From NCBI GenBank assembly GCA_945873195.1, contig CAMCDA010000031.1, positions 1 to 32,100 of the forward strand: 32,100 nucleotides of DNA, in the 5' to 3' direction. Position 1 is the stretch's first letter, and the number at the start of each line of letters is the position of its first letter. The position numbers and the translations under genes were made by a program. The stretch comes from Asaia bogorensis (GTDB lineage: Bacteria; Pseudomonadota; Alphaproteobacteria; Acetobacterales; Acetobacteraceae). Positions 3,365-26,450 of the stretch are shown here, in pieces. The notes below the pieces were generated by a model. That model saw only the letters and a list, made by a program, of their open reading frames with translations, searched no databases and was not told the DNA's origin.

Positions 3365-4189
3365 ATGGCCGACGGACAGGCCCTGCTGAACGCGCGCTAT
3401 GGCATGGACATGCCGAACGTGGAGGTGCCCGACCCGATCGCGCCCTTGCTCGATCGGCGCGTGGTGCGCCGCTATACCGACCAGGACATCCCCGACCCGC
3501 TCCTGGACGGGCTGCTGGCCGCGGCGCAGTCGGCGCCGGCCAAGTCGGATTTGCAGCAGTATTCCGTGGTCGTCATGCGCGACAAACCCCGCATCAAGCA
3601 GATCGCCGACTGGATCGGCACCATGGACTGGATCGCCACCGCGCCCGTGTTCCTGGTCTGGTGCGGCGACATGCGGCGCGGCCAGCGTTTGTGCGACATG
3701 CACAACATGCCCCATGCCAACAACAACATGGACACGTTTCTGAACACCGCCGTCGATTGCTCGCTGGCCATGGCGCAGTTCATGGCCGCCGCCGAGGCGG
3801 TGGGTCTCGGCACTTGCCCGATCTCCTATGTCCGCTCTCATATCGAGCGTGTGTCGCCCCTTCTCGGCCTGCCTAACGGGGTCTATCCGGTGGCGGGGTT
3901 GAGCGTAGGATGGCCCGTGTTCCGCCGCCCGACGTCCATGCGACTGCCGCAGTCGATCGTCGTGCATCGGGAACGCTACGACGATAGCGCTTTGCCGACC
4001 GAGGTCGCGGCCTATGACGAACGCCGGCGCACCCGTGATCCGGTCGCCGCGTCCGGCCTGAAGAACAACGACGTCCATCCCCCGCGCGAAGGCGTGGGCT
4101 GGAGCGAGAACGTCGCCCGCCAGCTTTCCGTGCCGGAGCGGTTCGGCTTCCGCGCTTATCTCAAGACCAAGGGGTTCGACCTTGCCTGA
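3365..4189 (+). CDS. Nitroreductase family protein
   Basis: A 274-residue FMN-dependent oxidoreductase of the nitroreductase fold. Visible hallmarks are DRRVVRRYTD (about residues 30-39), whose arginines contact the FMN phosphate, the SAPAKSDLQQY segment, and AAEAVGLGTCPIS near residue 150, the usual glycine-rich FMN contact. The C-terminal 50 residues (YDERRRTRD...RFGFRAYLKTKGF) are typical of the NfsA/NfrA-like branch. These enzymes use NAD(P)H to reduce quinones, flavins or nitroaromatics in the cytoplasm. A strong ribosome site GGAGGAG lies about 7 bases before the ATG. The last codons overlap the next gene by 8 bases, so it is very likely an operon with the Nudix hydrolase. The natural substrate is unknown. 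Confidence 0.9.
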   Translation: MADGQALLNARYGMDMPNVEVPDPIAPLLDRRVVRRYTDQDIPDPLLDGLLAAAQSAPAKSDLQQYSVVVMRDKPRIKQIADWIGTMDWIATAPVFLVWCGDMRRGQRLCDMHNMPHANNNMDTFLNTAVDCSLAMAQFMAAAEAVGLGTCPISYVRSHIERVSPLLGLPNGVYPVAGLSVGWPVFRRPTSMRLPQSIVVHRERYDDSALPTEVAAYDERRRTRDPVAASGLKNNDVHPPREGVGWSENVARQLSVPERFGFRAYLKTKGFDLA

Positions 4190-4838
4190 AGATCATTTCC
4201 GCCACGCGAACCTGATCGACCAGCACGAGCCGCCTCGGCCGCGTGCCGTCCGCGCCCGCCACGCCGCCAGCCTGATCGTGTATCGGATGGCGCGTGGAGA
4301 GGCCGAGATGCTGATGGGCATGCGCGGCAAGCGGCACGTGTTCATGCCCAACCGCCTGGTGTTTCCGGGCGGACGGGTGGACGCGGCCGATCTCTCGACC
4401 CCGGCCGCGACGCCGCTGGCCGATCACACCGAACGCCACCTGCGCCGGCAAGCGAATGAGAAGCTGGCCCATGGCCTGGGCATCGCCGCGGCCCGCGAAC
4501 TGCTCGAGGAAACCGGGCTGTCGCTCGGCGAACCCGCGCGCCTGGGCGGGCTGTGGTACCTGGCCCGCGCGGTGACGCCGCCGAACAACCCGATCCGTTA
4601 TAATGCTCGGTTCCTGGCGGTGGCGGCCGAGCAAGTGACCGGCGAACTCGGCGGCGACGGGGAATTGGACAATTTGCGCTACTTCGGAATGGCCGAGGCC
4701 ATGGCGCTCGACCTGGCGGTGCCGACCCGGCGCGTGCTGGAACGGTTGCAGGTCTGGCTCGAGATGTCCGAACAGCAGCGGATCGACATGATCCACACGC
4801 CGGTGCTGAAGAAGGACAAGGGCTGGGTGATGGAGTAG
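4182..4838 (+). CDS. Nudix hydrolase, NUDT19/CoA-pyrophosphatase-like
   Basis: A 218-residue Nudix protein with a probable TTG start (TTG CCT GAA) overlapping the nitroreductase stop by 8 bases. The conserved core REL-L-EE-TG-L (RELLEETGL, residues about 105-113) supplies the metal-binding glutamates. It is separated from FPGGRVDAAD (61-70) by a longer insertion than in classical MutT proteins, as in the NUDT7/NUDT19 branch that cleaves CoA and acyl-CoA. The preceding strand MLMGMRGKRHVFMPNRLVFPGG is also typical of that branch. The cytoplasmic substrate is therefore probably a CoA species or another nucleoside diphosphate derivative; specificity is inferred only. The operon with an FMN nitroreductase suggests redox or cofactor housekeeping. 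Confidence 0.87.
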   Translation: MPEDHFRHANLIDQHEPPRPRAVRARHAASLIVYRMARGEAEMLMGMRGKRHVFMPNRLVFPGGRVDAADLSTPAATPLADHTERHLRRQANEKLAHGLGIAAARELLEETGLSLGEPARLGGLWYLARAVTPPNNPIRYNARFLAVAAEQVTGELGGDGELDNLRYFGMAEAMALDLAVPTRRVLERLQVWLEMSEQQRIDMIHTPVLKKDKGWVME

Positions 4839-7750: not shown

Positions 7751-8780
<1,030 letters not shown>

Positions 8781-8784
<4 letters not shown>

Positions 8785-9680
8785 AGCGCGTCCCGCACCG
8801 CGTCGCGGTAGCGTTCCATCGCGCTCAGGTGATCGGCGACGGTCCTGCCGGCGATGCGGCGATGGTGGCGGCGGCCGAAGGTGGTGGTCAGGGTCAGGTG
8901 GCTGGCGCTGGAGGCCTTCCAGAATTGGGCCTCGGTGTTCCAGTCCTTTTCCGTGCCCGCGCCGGCGGAGGTCCAGACCTCGATGCCCACCGCGTCGGCG
9001 GGGCGTCCGGCAGCCAGGGTCATGGCGCGCAGGCGGGCGAACTCCGCCAGCGCCGTGTCACCGGGCGGATAGGCGTTCATGATCCAGCCATCCCCAAGGC
9101 GCGCGATCCGTTCCAGCGTCTGGTCCACATGTCCGCCGAACCAGACCGGGATGCGGCGGTGGACGGGCATCGGGTTGATGCCCGCGTCCTGGATCTCGTG
9201 CCAGCTGCCCTTGAAGGTGACATGCGGTTCGGCCCAGAGCCTTTGCATCACCTCCACCTGTTCGGCCGACCGGCGGCCGCGGTTGGAGAAATTCTCGTTC
9301 AGGCCGGTGAACTCCACCGGGTTCCAGCCGACGCCGACGCCGAGGCGGAAGCGCCCGCCGCACAGCAGATCGAGCGAGGCGGCCTGCTTGGCCACCAGCA
9401 CAGCCTGGCGCTGCGCGAGGATCAGGACCTGGGTGGAGAACTCGGTCGTCGGGCGGCAGATCGCGGCCAGATAGGCGAAGCAGACGAAGGGATCATGGAA
9501 CAGGTCTTCCGACGTGTTGCGGTCGCCCCAGTCCGGGCGGGAGGCGACGTTCACTCCCAGCACATGGTCGGCCAGGCCGAGATTGGTATAGCCGAGGCCC
9601 TCCGCCGCTTGCGCGAAGTCCCGCACAACGATCGGATCGCCGCCAATGTCGTGCAGCGGCAGCATGACGCCCAGACGCAT
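8781..9680 (-). CDS. LLM class flavin-dependent oxidoreductase
   Basis: A 299-residue luciferase-like monooxygenase fold protein. MRLGVMLPLHDIGGDP at the start, GLGYTNLGLADHV (helix 1/strand 2), the LLCGGRFRLGVGVGWNPVEF signature, and RIPVWFGGHVDQTLERIARLGDGWIM are characteristic of the F420- or FMN-dependent LLM group, close to the probable F420-dependent subfamily. The cofactor cannot be decided from sequence. The product is a cytoplasmic oxidoreductase of unknown substrate. It overlaps pdxA by four bases (GTGA). A TATAAG hexamer about 40 bases before the start on this strand is a possible -10 element, with no convincing -35. Confidence 0.88.
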
Positions 9681-18853: not shown

Positions 18854-21800
18854 TCAACCGACCGCGTCGAACGCCGCCAGGCACATCTCCGGCGCGTTGG
18901 GCCAGGAGGCATGGCTGAACCCACCCAACACATGCGCATAATCCCCCCGTCCCAGCCCATACCCCACCGCAACCACGGCATCCGCAACCGCTCGGCGTCG
19001 CCACCGTTCCGCCGGATCAGGCACCACGGGCCAGGCCGGGCGATGCCCGACCAGCGGTGCATACCGCGCATCGCTCGCGCACAAGGCCGCCGTCGTGTCG
19101 GCCAGGACTGACAAAGCCCCCTCCGTCAGCTCCGGCATCGGCAGCCCGTCCAGCAAATACAGGCTCAGATGCGTCGCCGTCTTCTGCCGGACCAGCCAGT
19201 CGAACGAGAAACTGTTGAACACCGCGCACAACGCCAAAGCCAGCCGCAAAGGCCGAACGCCAGGGGTCTTCTCCACCGTCGCGGTATGCCCCAGCACAAC
19301 ACCAGGCGGCAGGATCGTCGCGATCATCGAGCGTTCATCGTTGGAACGCGCGATGTCGCGGAATGCCAGCCGGAAATGGCCAACGGCCTCGGCCACGCGG
19401 GGCTTGGCCAACAGAGCCTCGGCGCGCACCTGATAGCGGGGGGCGGTGTCCCACCGGTCGGTATATTGGTGGAACGTCTTCCCCTCATGCAGGATGCACC
19501 AGCCCGCGGCCCCATCGCCGATCGGGGCGAACAGGCCTGAATCGTCGGTCATGTGCAGGTCGCGACCGAAGCGGATCCCCTGCCGGTCGCACCAGGCCCC
19601 GAACCGCTCCTTGCCCGCGAACAGCCGTTGCGCCAGCGCCAGGTCCGCCGGCCCGCGCAGTTCCATCAGTGTCTGGTACGGCCCACCGGTGGCGTCGATG
19701 AAGGCGCGGTCGTAGGCCATGATCCGCGCGGGATCATCGGCCTGCTCGATCCCCTCCAGATAGAAGGCGCATTGCACCGCCCGCGCCGGCCCGGGGCGGC
19801 GGGCGACGACCAGGGCGAACTTGAACCGGCTGTCGATGTCGAAGATGCCGCGCCGGTTTTCAAACGACAGGCAGATATCCATCCCGTTCGCCAGATACAG
19901 GCGACGCAACCCGGTCGTGCCCTCATTCGCGTGGAAGGCTGATGGCAGCAACAGCCCCACCGCCCCATCCACCGCCGCCAGCCGGATCGCCCGTTCGGCG
20001 AACAGGCGGAAGGCGTCGAGGTTCCCGGCTGTCGAATCCGAGCCCATCCCCACGCGCTGATGCCGGTAAAGCCGGTTGGCGATGCGCTTCCGCTGCTCAA
20101 ACCCGGCGCGATAGGCGGCGAAAGCGGCGGCGATGGCGGGGTCGGCCAAAACCCGAGCCTCGATCGCGGCGCGTTCCCGCCGCGTTGGCGCGTCCAGCAC
20201 GGCCAGGTCATGACCGGCGACGAAATCCCGCGTGTTGTGCTGGATCACGTCCCAGGGCGGGTTGCCGATCACGGCATCGAACCCGGCGACCTCGGCAAAG
20301 GCGAGGTCCCAGGGCAGGGCATCCAAGCCGGCCGCCAGCATCGCCGCCTGGCGCGCGGTCGGGGTGTCCGGCCACTGCCCGGTCTCCTCCACCGCGCGGG
20401 CGAGTGCCTGCCACTCGTCATCTCCCTCCCGCGTGGCCAGCATCGCCGCCCCGGCCCAGGCGCGTGCCAGGTTCATCAACGGCGCGCGCGCCGCTTCCAA
20501 CCGGTCTCGCGCGGCGGCTTTCAGCGCGAGATCGGCCAGGTCGCGACCCAGCGTGGCGCCGATTTGGCGCACCTGCTCGATGACGGTCGCGTGCATCATG
20601 GCCAGCCGATCCACCAGCCCGCGCGACAGCAGCGGGTCCAGCACGCCTCCCCCGACCGGCAGGCGCTGCATATCCTCCAGGAACGGGCCGGACAGTGAGT
20701 CTCCTTGGACCAGGCGGTGGTCGAGGAAGGTCAGCGGCAACCCCTCGGCATGGGATTCCAACCAGAGCGACAGTTTCGCCAGCTCGACCGCCAGCGGATT
20801 GCGGTCGGCGCCATACAGGCAATGTACCGCGACCAGGCGCCGGCAGATCGCCATCGCCTTTCGCTCCGCGATCCCGCCTTGCGACAGGGCCGGCAGCCAG
20901 CTCGCCAGCAGCCCGTCGGGATCGGGCAAGGCGGCAATGCGCGCGCGCAGGCGGGCGGCGCGCGCCGGATCGATGGCGGGATCACGGCTGAGCGCGTCGG
21001 CGGTGCGGCAGGCATCGAACAGGGCGTCGGCGAGGAACCGGCAGGCCTCGACCAGGAAATGCCCGCTGCCGGTGGCCGGATCGACGACCCGCAGCGCCAG
21101 GATCGCGCCCGGGTCCGGGTCATCCGCGGGGCTGCGCGCGCGGCACAGCGGGCCGAGGGCTTCGGCGACCAGGAACCGCACGAACCCGGTGGGCGTGTAG
21201 TAGCTGCCGGTGGCCTTGCGGCCCTGGCCGGCGCGCAGGAAGAAGCGGCCGGCCGGGATCGCCTCGATCGCCATGGAATGTGACGGATCGGCGGGAACGA
21301 CGGTTTCCTGCCGGCCGCGGCGCAGGCGGGTCATGGGCTGGGCGGCGATGCCCGGTTCCAGGTCGAGCAGGGACTCATAGACCCCGCCCAGCACCTCCAC
21401 ATCCAGCGCGCCGTAATGCACCCGTTCCCGCGGCCGCCCACGCGCCGTCGTCCACAGCAGCCGGTCGAGTAGCAGCGCCACCGCCCGCTCCCCCCAGCGC
21501 AGGCGATCGAGCGTCGGCATCGTGTCCACGCCGAACAGCGCGCCGCCGAGGGGCGCGATGGTGAGTTCGGCGCAGCGCAGCCCTTCGCGGCAGGCGCGGA
21601 ACAGGCCGCGCAGCCCGGATTCCAGCATCGCGCCGGTATCGTGCCCGTGGTCCAGATGGCGCCGGACCAGAGGCCCCAGCGCGCGATTGGGCGACAGGGA
21701 GGCGCGCCACAGCCGTGTGCTGGCGAAGCTGAAGCCGCGCGCGGGGTCGCTGGAGGCCTCCAGCTTCAGGATGAACAGCAGCCGGTGGATCAGGATCAAC

Positions 21801-22519
21801 CCGTCATGCCACAGGTCGGCGGCGCTCGCCTCTGGGTTGCCCGAATCGGTGATGACGGCTTGCAGGAAGCATTCCAGCCCGCCCCGGGCCTGGGCGCGCA
21901 GGTCGCTGGTCACCCGCGCCTGGTGCAGGCGCGCGGCGTCGAGGATTTGCGGAAAGGTCGGAAGGCCGGCGAGGAGGGTGAGCAGCAGGCGCAGGCTGTC
22001 CGGCGGGGCGGGAGCGGCGCGCCAGGCATCGAGCGGAAAGGACAGATGGCTGTCGGGCAGGGCCGGGTCGCTGATCAGCAAGCGCAGTTCCGCGCCGTTG
22101 GAAAGCAGGCCGGCGGTCTCCCGGCTGGCGCGCAGCACGCGATGGGCGGCACTGGCCGGGGAATGCCGAGCGCGGTCCGGGGTGTCGAGGTCGGTATCCG
22201 TGGCCCAGGCGCGGATCGTGATGCCATGGCCCGTCGGGAGGATGTGGCCGCCATCCTCCGTGCCCTGTCGCGTCCTGACCGGTTCGGCCGCGAAGGGCGG
22301 TTTGACCCCCAGCGGCGTGATCGCCTGCCGGAGCACCCGCGCCGCACTCGCCCCCGGCCCGATCGGATGCCGCCGCAGGCCGCGCCAGACCGAGGTCAGG
22401 ATTTCAGGCGCCGGCCCGGACAGCCCCAGCGTCGGCAGCAGATCCGGCAAATCGAGGCGCAGGAACGAGTCGGTCAGCGCCGAACCGACCGTCGCGCAGT
22501 CTTCGAACGCGAGGCTCAT
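18854..22519 (-). CDS. N6-adenine DNA methyltransferase, Eco57I/DrmMI-like
   Basis: A 1221-residue protein. Residues about 1-430 form a helical N-terminal region without a recognised nuclease motif, ending with LGGVYESLLDLEPG near residue 380, as in type IIG, PglX and DrmMI methylases. The methyltransferase core follows: GSYYTPTGFVRFLV (about 438), motif I VVDPATGSGHFLVEA (480-488), YGADRNPLAVELAKLSLWLE, and catalytic motif IV VIGNPPWDVI with NPPW at 753-756, which marks adenine-N6 transfer. The C-terminal part (SFENRRGIFDIDSRFKFALVV ... LYLLDGLPMPEL) is a probable target-recognition domain. The open frame continues upstream to 23236, but ATG 22519 begins the family-like protein and overlaps the helicase stop by four bases (ATGA). 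It resembles the methylase of class 1 DISARM. No endonuclease gene adjoins it. Confidence 0.88.
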   Translation of the reverse strand: MSLAFEDCATVGSALTDSFLRLDLPDLLPTLGLSGPAPEILTSVWRGLRRHPIGPGASAARVLRQAITPLGVKPPFAAEPVRTRQGTEDGGHILPTGHGITIRAWATDTDLDTPDRARHSPASAAHRVLRASRETAGLLSNGAELRLLISDPALPDSHLSFPLDAWRAAPAPPDSLRLLLTLLAGLPTFPQILDAARLHQARVTSDLRAQARGGLECFLQAVITDSGNPEASAADLWHDGLILIHRLLFILKLEASSDPARGFSFASTRLWRASLSPNRALGPLVRRHLDHGHDTGAMLESGLRGLFRACREGLRCAELTIAPLGGALFGVDTMPTLDRLRWGERAVALLLDRLLWTTARGRPRERVHYGALDVEVLGGVYESLLDLEPGIAAQPMTRLRRGRQETVVPADPSHSMAIEAIPAGRFFLRAGQGRKATGSYYTPTGFVRFLVAEALGPLCRARSPADDPDPGAILALRVVDPATGSGHFLVEACRFLADALFDACRTADALSRDPAIDPARAARLRARIAALPDPDGLLASWLPALSQGGIAERKAMAICRRLVAVHCLYGADRNPLAVELAKLSLWLESHAEGLPLTFLDHRLVQGDSLSGPFLEDMQRLPVGGGVLDPLLSRGLVDRLAMMHATVIEQVRQIGATLGRDLADLALKAAARDRLEAARAPLMNLARAWAGAAMLATREGDDEWQALARAVEETGQWPDTPTARQAAMLAAGLDALPWDLAFAEVAGFDAVIGNPPWDVIQHNTRDFVAGHDLAVLDAPTRRERAAIEARVLADPAIAAAFAAYRAGFEQRKRIANRLYRHQRVGMGSDSTAGNLDAFRLFAERAIRLAAVDGAVGLLLPSAFHANEGTTGLRRLYLANGMDICLSFENRRGIFDIDSRFKFALVVARRPGPARAVQCAFYLEGIEQADDPARIMAYDRAFIDATGGPYQTLMELRGPADLALAQRLFAGKERFGAWCDRQGIRFGRDLHMTDDSGLFAPIGDGAAGWCILHEGKTFHQYTDRWDTAPRYQVRAEALLAKPRVAEAVGHFRLAFRDIARSNDERSMIATILPPGVVLGHTATVEKTPGVRPLRLALALCAVFNSFSFDWLVRQKTATHLSLYLLDGLPMPELTEGALSVLADTTAALCASDARYAPLVGHRPAWPVVPDPAERWRRRAVADAVVAVGYGLGRGDYAHVLGGFSHASWPNAPEMCLAAFDAVG

Positions 22520-25500
22520 GGCGCGGGTGGCACCAGGATCAGCATGCCGATCGGGGTCACGGTCGGCGCACCCAGGGCGGCGTGGAGGGCAAGGGCCTCG
22601 GTCCGTTGCTGGAACAATTCCGCCGCCGCCGCCGCGTCCCGCCGCTGGTCCGCCGGATTGGAGGCATCGGCGGTGAAGGCTGTCAGGCGGTCGAGCGCAC
22701 CCGGCAGGGTCTTCCAGGCGGGCGCGTAGGGGAGGAAGCCGAACAGGTCCGGGACGGGCGGTGTCCAGGAACCGGCGATCTCGGTCGCCCGCCGGTCGAG
22801 CCAATGGCCGAGGGTCGCCGCTTCCCGCGTGATCATCGCGTCGTGGGCGGCCTGGTGGCGATCGGCGATGGTGGCGGCCTCGGTGGTGGCGAGCGCCAGC
22901 GCCTCGGGCTGACGACCCGGGATCCAGGCCGGCCAGGCGGGCGTGGCATCGGCCTGGGCGAGCGCCAGCCAGGCCGCGGGATCGCCCACGATCGTGGGCG
23001 CGCCGGTTTGCGGCAGCAGCACCGCGATGATCTCCCGCAGCGCGATCCGGCGGGCGTCGCGCCGTTCGAGCGCATAGGTCAGCAGCACCGCCGGCGCCGC
23101 GTCGTGACAACCGACGGCCACGCGCGGGTCGGAGCCAGACGGGGGCTCCAGCCGCATCCGATCCGCGGCCCGCCGCACCAGCGGATGCGCCCAGCCGGGA
23201 TGGGCCAGTTCTCGGCCTTGCGCGTCGCGCAGACACGCCGGATCGGCCGTCACCCGCAGGCCGCCGGTCGCGGGATCATGGCCGGGCAGCCCGGACAGGT
23301 CTGCGTGCCAGTCGGGCGGCGGCACGAGGCAATCGGGGTCCGTCCCATCCGGTGCCGCCCCGCACGCGGCCCGCAGAAAACCCAGGGGCGAACATCCCGC
23401 GATGGCGCGCGTGGCCCCGGGGGGCACCGAGGTCGCGCTGATCGCGCCCAGCCCGGTCAGCCAGCCATGCCGCGCGGCCATCTGCTCGAACCCGGCAAAG
23501 GCGCGGTCGATCTCGCGCAGCAGGTCGCGGTAGGCGTCGGCATTGGTTTCCTCGGCCATCCGATCCAGCGTGCGGATGGGGGAGGGCGGGGGCGGGAACA
23601 GGGGCGCCTGGTCCTCCGCGAACCCCTCGATCAGGCCGGCCCCCAGCGCGCCAGACTCGGCGGTGACGCCCAACGTGTCCGGCATCACGTCCAGGGCGGC
23701 GCGGGCCTGTTCGTATTTCGCGATCAGCCGCAGCAGCAGCCGTTCCTCGAACGTGCCGGCCAGATAGAGATAGCGGATATCGGGGTCATGCCGCTGGCCA
23801 TAGCGGTCGATGCGCCCGTTGCGTTGCTCCAGCCGGTTCGGATTATAGGGCAAGTCAAGGTGGATCAGATGCCGGCAGCGCTGCTGGAGGTTCAGCCCCT
23901 CGGCCAGCGAATCCGTGCTGATCAGGATCAGGCGACCGGCGCTGGCGAACCGATCGGCGGCTTCCGTCCGGCGGTCATCGGCATCGGCGCCGCTGATCGA
24001 GAGGATCGCGCCGGAGATCGCGGGATCGGCGCGCAAATGCGCCAGGGCGGCGTCCTGGCTGTCGGCATACTCTGTATAAACAAGGATATTGGCGTCGGGT
24101 TCATTGGCGCGGATGCGGGTGACCTCGGCGGCCAGCGCGTGCAGCTTCGGGTCCTGGCTGGCGGCGGCCTCGCCCAGTTGGATCAACGCCCGCAGCGCGA
24201 GGGCGGTTTCATGCGCCTCCGCCGCATGCAGGTCCGCGGCCATCGCCTCGGCTTCCAGGTCGGCCTGCGCGCGTTCATCCTCCGCCGACAGCACGCCATA
24301 GCGCGCCAGCCGGCGGCGATAGGCCCGCAGGGCGCGGGCGCGATCACGGCGGATCGCCGCCTCATCCCCCGCCAGCCCAAACGCGGCGTGCCGATCCGCC
24401 ACCACGGCCAGCGTGTTGACCGCGGCGCGTAGCGTGGAGACGGATCGTTTCAGCAGCCCCACGAAGGCCAGCGTGTCCGCCGGATGCCGCGGGCGAACGC
24501 CTCGGCGCAGGCGGGGCGCGATCAGGGCGGAGAGCGCCTGGTGGAAGGCCAGAACCGCGCTGTCTGTTTCCGGCGCCAAGGTGATCGCCACCGGCGTCAC
24601 GATCCGCTCGCGGAACAGGGGGCGGCCGGTCGCGGGATCGCGGACATGGCCCTTCAGCCGCCGCACCACGTGCCGCCGATAGACCTGGCCCAGCAGCCGT
24701 CCCTGCCCATCCACCAGCCCCGGATCGAGCAAGGCCATCAACGAGGCAAAATGCGCGTCGTTGCCGTCATGCGGGGTGGCGGTCAGCAGCAGCAGCCCCT
24801 CCGACCGCCGGCCCAGCACCTCGGCCAGGCGGCGGCGCAGCGTGTCGCTTGATCCGTCACTGAAACAATGATGCGCCTCGTCGATGATCGCGAGGTCCCA
24901 GGCGGATCGTTCCAGCTCCGCCAGCACCGGTTCCTGCTTCGCGAAGTCGAGGGACGTGAGGCACAGCGCCGTCGCGTCGAACGGATTGCCGCCGAGTTCC
25001 AGCGCGCGCCGTTGCGCCCGTAACGATACCGCGTCGGCGAGAATGGTCGGGCGCAGGCCGAAGCGCACCAACAACTCCCGCGCCCATTGTCCCAGCAAGG
25101 GACCGGAGGGGCAAAGGACGATGACGCGGTGGGCGCGCCGGCGCAGGATCAGTTCGGCGGCGATCATGCCGGCCTGGATCGTCTTCCCCAGGCCCACGCC
25201 ATCGGCCAGCAACAGGCGCGGGCGCGGCATGTCCAGCGCGCGCAGGACGGGGACAAGCTGATACGGCTCCATCGCCACGCGGCCGGGATGGGCGGTGAGC
25301 AGGGCGCCGGCCCCGGGCGCGCGATCCAGCAGATGGGCGACATGATACAGCCGCCAGGCGGTGACCGAGGCGGGATCGTCGGGGCGGAGGTCGGCGCGGA
25401 TCGGTTCCACATCCTCCCACGGGTGCAGCAGGTCCCATTCCAGCCCCAGCAGATCGCCCGCGGCGCAGCGCAGGCGCAGGCGGGTTTCGGTGCCGCAGGG

Positions 25501-25566
25501 TTCGGCTTCCAGCACATCCCATGTCAGCCCGCGGGCGCGCAGCTTGATCCCAGGCGAGAGATGCAT
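22516..25566 (-). CDS. SNF2/RapA-type helicase, DrmD-like
   Basis: A 1016-residue superfamily 2 ATPase. The N-terminal segment (GIKLRARGLTWDVLEAEP, GLEWDLLHPWEDVEP) matches the small beta domain that precedes the motor in DrmD proteins. Motor motifs: ADGVGLGKT (Walker A, residues 121-129), NPFDATALCLTSLDFAKQ, DEAH (229-232), LLTATPHDGND (260-270), then in the second RecA lobe ILVYTEY, LISTDSLAEGLNLQ and LEQRNGRIDRYGQ near 575-590 with the arginine finger. A helical insertion lies between the lobes. The last 400 residues are unassigned. Such ATPases translocate on DNA. The gene is first in a two-gene operon with the methyltransferase (4-base ATGA overlap) and is divergent from the SDR gene. 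The start has only a weak GGTGGAA site. Confidence 0.9.
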   Translation of the reverse strand: MHLSPGIKLRARGLTWDVLEAEPCGTETRLRLRCAAGDLLGLEWDLLHPWEDVEPIRADLRPDDPASVTAWRLYHVAHLLDRAPGAGALLTAHPGRVAMEPYQLVPVLRALDMPRPRLLLADGVGLGKTIQAGMIAAELILRRRAHRVIVLCPSGPLLGQWARELLVRFGLRPTILADAVSLRAQRRALELGGNPFDATALCLTSLDFAKQEPVLAELERSAWDLAIIDEAHHCFSDGSSDTLRRRLAEVLGRRSEGLLLLTATPHDGNDAHFASLMALLDPGLVDGQGRLLGQVYRRHVVRRLKGHVRDPATGRPLFRERIVTPVAITLAPETDSAVLAFHQALSALIAPRLRRGVRPRHPADTLAFVGLLKRSVSTLRAAVNTLAVVADRHAAFGLAGDEAAIRRDRARALRAYRRRLARYGVLSAEDERAQADLEAEAMAADLHAAEAHETALALRALIQLGEAAASQDPKLHALAAEVTRIRANEPDANILVYTEYADSQDAALAHLRADPAISGAILSISGADADDRRTEAADRFASAGRLILISTDSLAEGLNLQQRCRHLIHLDLPYNPNRLEQRNGRIDRYGQRHDPDIRYLYLAGTFEERLLLRLIAKYEQARAALDVMPDTLGVTAESGALGAGLIEGFAEDQAPLFPPPPSPIRTLDRMAEETNADAYRDLLREIDRAFAGFEQMAARHGWLTGLGAISATSVPPGATRAIAGCSPLGFLRAACGAAPDGTDPDCLVPPPDWHADLSGLPGHDPATGGLRVTADPACLRDAQGRELAHPGWAHPLVRRAADRMRLEPPSGSDPRVAVGCHDAAPAVLLTYALERRDARRIALREIIAVLLPQTGAPTIVGDPAAWLALAQADATPAWPAWIPGRQPEALALATTEAATIADRHQAAHDAMITREAATLGHWLDRRATEIAGSWTPPVPDLFGFLPYAPAWKTLPGALDRLTAFTADASNPADQRRDAAAAAELFQQRTEALALHAALGAPTVTPIGMLILVPPAP

Positions 25567-25646
25567 TCAGGTTCCACCGAAGCTATGGCCGGTGGTCAGG
25601 GAACCATTGCGACATTGAGAAACGGTTAACCGAGGGGACGAATTCG
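25567..25646. promoter_or_regulatory. Divergent promoter region between helicase and SDR genes
   Basis: These 80 bases must carry the promoters of both the helicase-methyltransferase operon and the SDR gene. An interrupted inverted repeat GGTTCC (25570-25575) / GGAACC (25600-25605), with ACC/GGT arms nearby, could be an operator. A GAGGGGA ribosome site serves the SDR gene. No promoter hexamers are convincing. Confidence 0.35.
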
Positions 25647-26450
25647 ATGGTGCCGGACAGGTTCAAGGGAAAGGTCGCGCTGGTCGCGGGGGGCGCGTCT
25701 GGCATCGGATACGCCATCGCCACGCGGCTGCACGCGGAGGGGGCTTCGGTGGTCGTGGGCGATCTGAACGCCGAACGGCTGGACGCGCTGGGGGCCCTGG
25801 GCGACCGCGTCGCGACCCTGGCCGGCAACGTGACCGTGGAAGCGGATGCGAAGGCCCTGGTTGCGCTGGCGGCCGAACGCTTTGGCGGGTTGGACGCGGC
25901 GTTCAACGTCGCCGGGGCATCTCGGCCTGGCTACATCGTTGATCTGGCCGAGGATGAATGGGATTTCACCGTCGATCTCTGCCTGAAGGGCGTGTTCCTG
26001 GGCATGAAGCACCAGGCGCGCCAGATGATGCGGCAAGGGCGGCCGGCTGGCGCGATCGTCAATATCGCGTCGTTGAACGCGCATGTGCCGATGCATGCCG
26101 GGTCGGCCTATGTCTCGGCCAAGGCGGGGGTGGAGGCGCTCAGCAAGAACGGCGCGCTGGAATTCGCCCCGCATGGCATCCGAGTGAACGCGATCCTGCC
26201 GGGGCTGGTGCAAACCCCGCTCACGCGGCGGCATTTCGACAATCCGGACGCGCTGGCGGCGTTTGTGGATCGGATCCCGATGGGGCGGCCGGCGCAACCG
26301 GAGGAGATCGCGGCGCCCGCCTTGTACCTGGCGAGCGACGACGCGGCCTATGTCTCGGGTGCGAGCCTGCTGGTGGATGGGGCCTGGGCGGTCAGCGGGT
26401 ACCCCGATATGCGGCCGTTCCGTGGGCCGGTGCGGTGGAACGCGGGGTAG
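25647..26450 (+). CDS. SDR family oxidoreductase (FabG-like)
   Basis: A 267-residue classical short-chain dehydrogenase. The cofactor loop is GGASGIG (residues about 15-21, the T-G-x3-G-x-G pattern with Ala-Gly-Gly before it), FNVAGAS stands for the usual NNAG, and the catalytic residues are the Ser of VNIASLNAH, with Tyr and Lys in AYVSAKAGVEAL. RVNAILPGLVQTPL and YVSGASLLVDGAW are the usual C-terminal family segments. The Asp at VVVGDLNAERL suggests NAD(H) preference. The GAGGGGA ribosome site fits the start at 25647. It is a cytoplasmic alcohol/ketone oxidoreductase of unknown substrate. It converges on the GT4 gene with nine bases between stops. Confidence 0.92.
   Translation: MVPDRFKGKVALVAGGASGIGYAIATRLHAEGASVVVGDLNAERLDALGALGDRVATLAGNVTVEADAKALVALAAERFGGLDAAFNVAGASRPGYIVDLAEDEWDFTVDLCLKGVFLGMKHQARQMMRQGRPAGAIVNIASLNAHVPMHAGSAYVSAKAGVEALSKNGALEFAPHGIRVNAILPGLVQTPLTRRHFDNPDALAAFVDRIPMGRPAQPEEIAAPALYLASDDAAYVSGASLLVDGAWAVSGYPDMRPFRGPVRWNAG

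Follow-up and report, generated by a model that had tools for sequence, protein, structure and literature searches.

The window, meaning the whole 32,100-nucleotide stretch analysed here and the entire contig C31 of a draft genome (5.45 Mb, 400 contigs), carries a helicase gene and an adenine methylase gene that are fixed as a pair in their genus. We give about even odds (roughly 50%) that this pair is a core-genome module for m6A methylation that has no nuclease and is permanent in the genus, more than a classical restriction system. Because every good-quality genome of the genus retains the pair, a mobile or decaying defence gene is improbable. This reading builds on the pairing of the two genes, their domain make-up, the lack of any recognisable intact nuclease, fixation in the genus, largely vertical descent and purifying selection.

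The helicase-methylase operon

The two genes were initially annotated as one unit joined by an ATGA overlap, and the sequence bears this out (ccATGAgc). The features of the locus are as follows:

22516-25566, minus strand: ArmA-like helicase, 1016 aa (ORF check, family scans, motifs)
18854-22519, minus strand: ArmB-like adenine methylase, 1221 aa (ORF check, family scans, structure model)
22516-22519, minus strand: overlap (ATGA) between the helicase stop codon and the methylase start codon (sequence, spacing in relatives)
25567-25646, no strand: divergent intergenic (promoter) region of 80 bp between helicase and SDR genes (alignment of 18 loci)
25647-26450, plus strand: divergent SDR gene (syntenic marker, related loci)
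Methylase residues about 39-195: PD-(D/E)xK-like domain, predicted dead (fold match)
Methylase residues about 205-390: HsdM-like helical domain (fold match)
Methylase residues 480-488 (DPATGSGHF) and 753-756 (NPPW): N6-adenine methylase core (motifs)
Methylase, after the N6-adenine methylase core: conserved C-terminal region

The spacing between helicase and methylase in relatives is likewise 4 bp or near zero. A 1460-aa GTG reading frame reaching position 23236 was rejected as the methylase, being merely an upstream open frame; the ATG sits in the ATGA overlap. When six copies were aligned, the helicase motifs DGVGLGKT, DEAHH and QRNGRIDRYGQ and the methylase motifs DPATGSGHF and NPPW were all kept, DP..GSGHF being strictly invariant. 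The C-terminal region of the methylase is not hypervariable among the genus copies.

The pair is flanked by the SDR gene and glycosyltransferases on one side and by a galactarate/altronate dehydratase on the other. The SDR gene (74-80% identical) lies directly upstream of the pair, in divergent orientation, in 18 related loci, while the downstream flank varies between loci. The 80-bp intergenic region contains partly conserved blocks (GTTAAC..TTT...AAC) in the 18 aligned loci. The SDR gene is named here as a syntenic marker for the pair, and joint action with it is not implied. A third operon gene was also considered. Genes for a GMC oxidoreductase (L023) and an epimerase (L024) overlap the methylase end, but the two share no kinship with one another or with the window flank, and the candidate was dropped.

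The pair corresponds to ArmA-ArmB

To which family do the two proteins belong? Their kinship with DrmD and DrmMI, proposed at the outset, was confirmed by the top PADLOC matches (E 1.8e-98 for the helicase, E 1.7e-82 for the methylase), and the methylase also matched Pfam Eco57I (PF07669) above the cut-off (E 1.1e-14). Library scans assigned the helicase to the DrmD/BrxHII kind, and for the methylase they pointed to DrmMI and type IIG enzymes. With the proteins of a DISARM-like locus (L027) as queries, drmA, drmB and drmC were found nowhere near the pair, as the initial annotation had stated. Membership in DISARM was rejected on three grounds: (i) drmABC are missing; (ii) the helicase scores only 349.1 bits against NCBIfam DISARM_DrmD (NF038317; cut-off 610); and (iii) DISARM-type methylases lie at a great distance in the tree.

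A scan of 84,980 species genomes returned 65 loci, mostly relatives at 39-64% identity. The methylase nearly always has the helicase immediately upstream. This arrangement recurs in about 50 loci, so it is far beyond chance. A gene for a DruE/YprA-like helicase comes after the pair in Cyanobacteria, Myxococcota, Acidobacteriota, Planctomycetota and Chloroflexota. These helicases reach 1,910 aa, and a domain scan of one of them showed DEAD, helicase C and MZB domains. ArmC-type genes occur in 12 loci of other phyla, with a Vsr-like C-terminus in those that have complete ends. All seven ArmC-type proteins examined share a terminal block, SPLELKF...ADF...DGAAFH...RD, which is consistent with the Vsr-type nuclease that has been reported in the ArmC protein of ARMADA (PMC12458937). 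A homologue of the window helicase takes the place of ArmA in these ArmC-bearing loci, which also hold full-length homologues of the window methylase (PglX-like, ArmB); the identity to the window pair is about 39-47%. Because relatives in other phyla sit in ArmC-bearing operons, the window genes match ArmA-ArmB, and ARMADA is the closest described system.

The window genes are ArmA-ArmB without ArmC or ArmD in their neighbourhood. ArmC (a YprA-like helicase with a C-terminal Vsr-type nuclease) is found near none of the Acetobacteraceae pairs, within 10 kb at loci with such a flank, and ArmD (RelE-GajB/UvrD, type II only) is absent among the neighbouring genes scanned in the window. Acetobacteraceae loci carry the pair only. 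The description of a DISARM-related module holds as far as DrmD- and DrmMI-like proteins go and gives way to ARMADA for the closest system, relatives adjoining a YprA helicase-nuclease. The case that would have spoken against the initial annotation, relatives always standing beside drmABC, fails for Acetobacteraceae, and applies in altered form, with ArmC, in many other phyla. Phage records contained no close relative.

Related loci vary in composition. A Calothrix locus (L063) also encodes a RelE/ParE-UvrD protein, that is ArmD. A Pseudanabaena plasmid (L241) has a full ARMADA-like set of helicase, VapBC-type pair, methylase, '3'-5' exonuclease' and large DEAD helicase, with the toxin-antitoxin pair placed between helicase and methylase (8158-8863). 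Opposite-strand genes occupy the same place in two Calothrix ARMADA loci (L063 5972-9630, L094 2200-6880), and the L094 methylase is also interrupted. Extra genes of ARMADA-type and related loci encode AlbA_2/Schlafen, GmrSD, AIPR/AbiU and PsyrT-like helicase proteins (L067 14475-16238; L071 8849-10243; L079 14305-15975; L084 19955-21688; L065 5465-8529). Other Acetobacteraceae have a different pair, methylase then helicase (L025 4607-12636, L026 8823-16240). The proteins are about 1350-1550 and 1150-1250 aa long and 59-69% alike from one genome to the other, and they may form a further system of helicase and methylase.

A nuclease-like fold with a predicted dead active site

We modelled the regions that were left unassigned by the initial annotation. 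The AlphaFold2 model of methylase residues 1-425 is confident (pLDDT 92), and a fold search matched residues 39-193 to the nuclease end of BpuSI (Z 7.0, rmsd 4.0, 139 aligned), ahead of HsdR and other PD-(D/E)xK proteins, and residues 205-391 to the HsdM-type subunit 3khk (Z 8.2, rmsd 3.4, 127 aligned). A sequence-profile search of the N-terminus against the PDB gave nothing meaningful. Both Z values are modest, and the BpuSI match lies below Z 8, yet several restriction enzymes independently point the same way and the order of the strands is the expected one. The methylase N-terminus is predicted to fold like a PD-(D/E)xK nuclease.

On the presumed E-x-K strand, with the active-site register taken from strand order, arginine holds the acidic place in 47 of 48 relatives, and the lysine place is tryptophan (45) or phenylalanine (3). 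Neither an acid nor a lysine stands at these positions in any of the 48, ArmC-bearing ones included, and nearly all read R-[A/V]-W, so the domain is predicted to be catalytically dead. An N-terminal nuclease that is still active would make the protein a restriction-modification enzyme of the type IIG-like kind, as the likeness of domain order and fold to BpuSI and DrdV could suggest (BpuSI Z 7.0, residues 39-193); this is very improbable given these substitutions at the inferred E-x-K.

At the other end of the operon, helicase residues 620-1016 (model pLDDT 81) match RapA (Foldseek E 1.8e-5; Z 8-9), which accords with the published BrxHII architecture (PMC12839542). Family scans and fold search together describe the helicase as a RapA/BrxHII-type SNF2 translocase with a RapA-like C-terminal region. 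With the nuclease-like domain predicted dead and the helicase end RapA-like, the pair has no nuclease recognisable as intact in sequence or model. The earlier statement that no nuclease motif is present is right for active motifs and misses a nuclease-like fold whose active site appears lost.

Fixation and inheritance in the genus

The genus of the window is of Rhodopila type (genome records named Rhodopila are among its members) and was sampled with 33 genomes, 23 of good quality. The methylase is present in 32 of the 33 and the helicase in 31, and all 23 good-quality genomes have both; the genomes without a match are 64% complete (both genes absent) and 84% complete (helicase absent). By comparison, rpoB was found in 31 of 33 and the CcrM-associated RAMA domain in 29 of 33. 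Rhodopila globiformis DSM 161 (L050) carries the pair. Across a sample of the order, 20 of 397 genomes and 2 of 84 genera have it, the Rhodopila type and one other.

Methylase and rpoB trees of 21 genomes have 11 of 18 splits in common. Their conflicts fall mostly at weak branches, and a few do not; those at strong branches, such as G199+G205, make some exchange within the genus possible. G199, which has the core pair, also encodes a solo 1364-aa type IIG-like methylase (L031 8025-12119) that adjoins homologues of the window genes at 3365-4838. The relative labelled 'Nitrosovibrio' (L077) does not speak for transfer, as it is apparently the same contig as genus member G225 (matching coordinates). 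Methylase and helicase distances correlate (r = 0.95), and the methylase has a dN/dS of 0.10-0.21 and the helicase one of 0.06-0.18, where rpoB has 0.03-0.06. Mean identity over the same genome pairs is 61% (methylase), 60% (helicase), 83% (CcrM) and 93% (rpoB). Both proteins are constrained yet fast-evolving for core genes. Because the methylase tree largely follows rpoB, the SDR gene is often upstream and dN/dS is 0.06-0.21, the pair is an inherited, constrained module of largely vertical descent. Clade-wide presence and vertical inheritance, by which a core methylase is recognised, both hold for the window methylase.

In the methylase tree, whose root rests on long outgroup branches that leave root and direction unsettled, the Acetobacteraceae methylases sit beside a well-supported multi-phylum clade that includes ArmC-bearing loci. 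A C-terminal tail is found in ARMADA methylases and in the other stand-alone genus (L049, L081) and is missing from the Rhodopila copies. Judged from sequence, this distribution is consistent with stepwise reduction, but a former presence of ArmC does not follow from it.

Is the pair a decaying relic of DISARM or ARMADA? The lack of ArmC/ArmD or DrmABC, the missing tail, which ARMADA and the sister genus keep, and one relative with a broken helicase frame (L083) would agree with decay. Yet the pair is kept in 23 of 23 good genomes with conserved catalytic motifs and dN/dS of 0.06-0.21. This fixation and constraint contradict the reduced relic that the initial annotation had offered as an option, and we consider it the least probable of all readings. 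The broken copy, in Acidisphaera sp. S103 (L083 7076-10001), has its helicase in two frames, interrupted after about residue 590 by a frameshift or sequencing error, and is the sole damaged copy noticed in the genus.

Defence or core methylation?

The main rival to a core methylation role is a minimal stand-alone antiviral system, in which methylation would mark self and the helicase, alone or with host nucleases, would block unmethylated phage DNA. The same kind of pair serves defence in DISARM and ARMADA (PMC12458937), the tight coupling of the two genes has been kept, and both proteins evolve clearly faster than CcrM. On the other hand, the pair is fixed and largely vertical in the genus, unlike the patchy YprA/DrmB marker MZB (5 of 33 genomes), the scanned flanks are metabolic genes, and no intact nuclease was recognised. 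Near-universal, largely vertical inheritance and the lack of a nuclease make defence less likely than the core role; we give the minimal defence system proposed initially a probability clearly short of even. The data cannot choose finally between the two.

Alternatively, the pair could do the self-marking for an effector, a YprA helicase or nuclease, that is encoded elsewhere in the genome. Contig C189 of the window's genome carries a Druantia type III pair (L044 1050-9292; DruE, 1668 aa, and DruH, 1075 aa), DruE being its sole MZB protein, and ARMADA II and Druantia III work together in E. coli (PMC12458937). However, no MZB/YprA gene was detected in 28 of the 33 genus genomes, almost all of which retain the pair, so a distant effector is very improbable. 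An IstB-like ATPase gene, identified by eye, accompanies DruE-DruH near the contig end.

How would a core m6A-methylation module work? The methylase would mark a specific adenine site genome-wide as m6A, and the degenerate nuclease domain would have a part in structure or in DNA binding. The RapA-type ATPase, produced together with the methylase, may translocate on DNA or displace bound protein, and its action would make methylation complete. Lacking a nuclease, the module would have become a permanent methylation system of the genus rather than a classical restriction system, in a role comparable to the orphan methylases CcrM and DnmA. The example of DnmA shows that a methylase of this kind can mark DNA genome-wide and affect regulation while a transformation test reveals no restriction (PMC7261158). 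Two points run counter to a core role: the fast evolution of both proteins fits an arms race, and in ARMADA protection against phage HK022 requires all four genes (PMC12458937).

More specifically, we suggest, with confidence somewhat short of even, that one half of a phage-defence system, ArmA-ArmB, was domesticated into a fixed epigenetic system of the whole genus, with the RapA-type ATPase as dedicated partner to an adenine methylase that is type IIG-like and nuclease-dead. If true, this would be a clear case of a defence-system part entering the core genome. To our knowledge, there is no explanation of why a RapA-like ATPase is retained next to the adenine methylase in DISARM, ARMADA and type 3 BREX. 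A lineage whose good genomes all have kept these two genes alone lets the pair be studied in isolation, and an m6A motif, an expression effect or a phage effect in Rhodopila could be assigned to the pair alone.

Comparison with known systems

DISARM class 1 (DrmD, DrmMI and DrmA, DrmB, DrmC) resembles the pair in having DrmD- and DrmMI-like proteins in one operon. It differs by drmA/B/C, absent in the window, and the window helicase is far under the DrmD cut-off; methylases of the same family from DISARM-like operons (L027-L029) fall far outside the window-type methylases in the tree. Type 3 BREX (BrxHII, BrxXI; PMC12839542) shares a RapA-like helicase of the same C-terminal architecture and a PglX-like methylase, and no PglZ, BrxC, BrxA or BrxF was noticed in the inspected neighbourhood of the pair. 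Type IIG/IIL enzymes (BpuSI, DrdV, MmeI) likewise combine a nuclease-like domain, an HsdM-like helical linker and an N6-adenine methylase, whereas in the window pair the nuclease active site is apparently lost and the RapA-type ATPase has a gene of its own.

B. subtilis DnmA(YeeA)-YeeB-YeeC has an MmeI-type m6A methylase without nuclease motif beside a helicase gene, a likeness drawn from the descriptions in PMC7261158 and PMC12458937 rather than from sequence comparison. Its gene order is reversed and it has a third gene, yeeC (annotated endonuclease), absent from the window pair. DnmA methylates GACGAG, shows no restriction in a transformation test and affects expression (PMC7261158).

ARMADA (ArmA-ArmB-ArmC[-ArmD]; preprint PMC12458937) has the same succession of a BrxHII/RapA-like helicase and a PglX/YeeA-like methylase. 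It differs by ArmC and ArmD beside the pair and by methylases with a C-terminal tail, those of Rhodopila being roughly 200 aa shorter without it; and the Rhodopila pair is core in its genus, not patchy.
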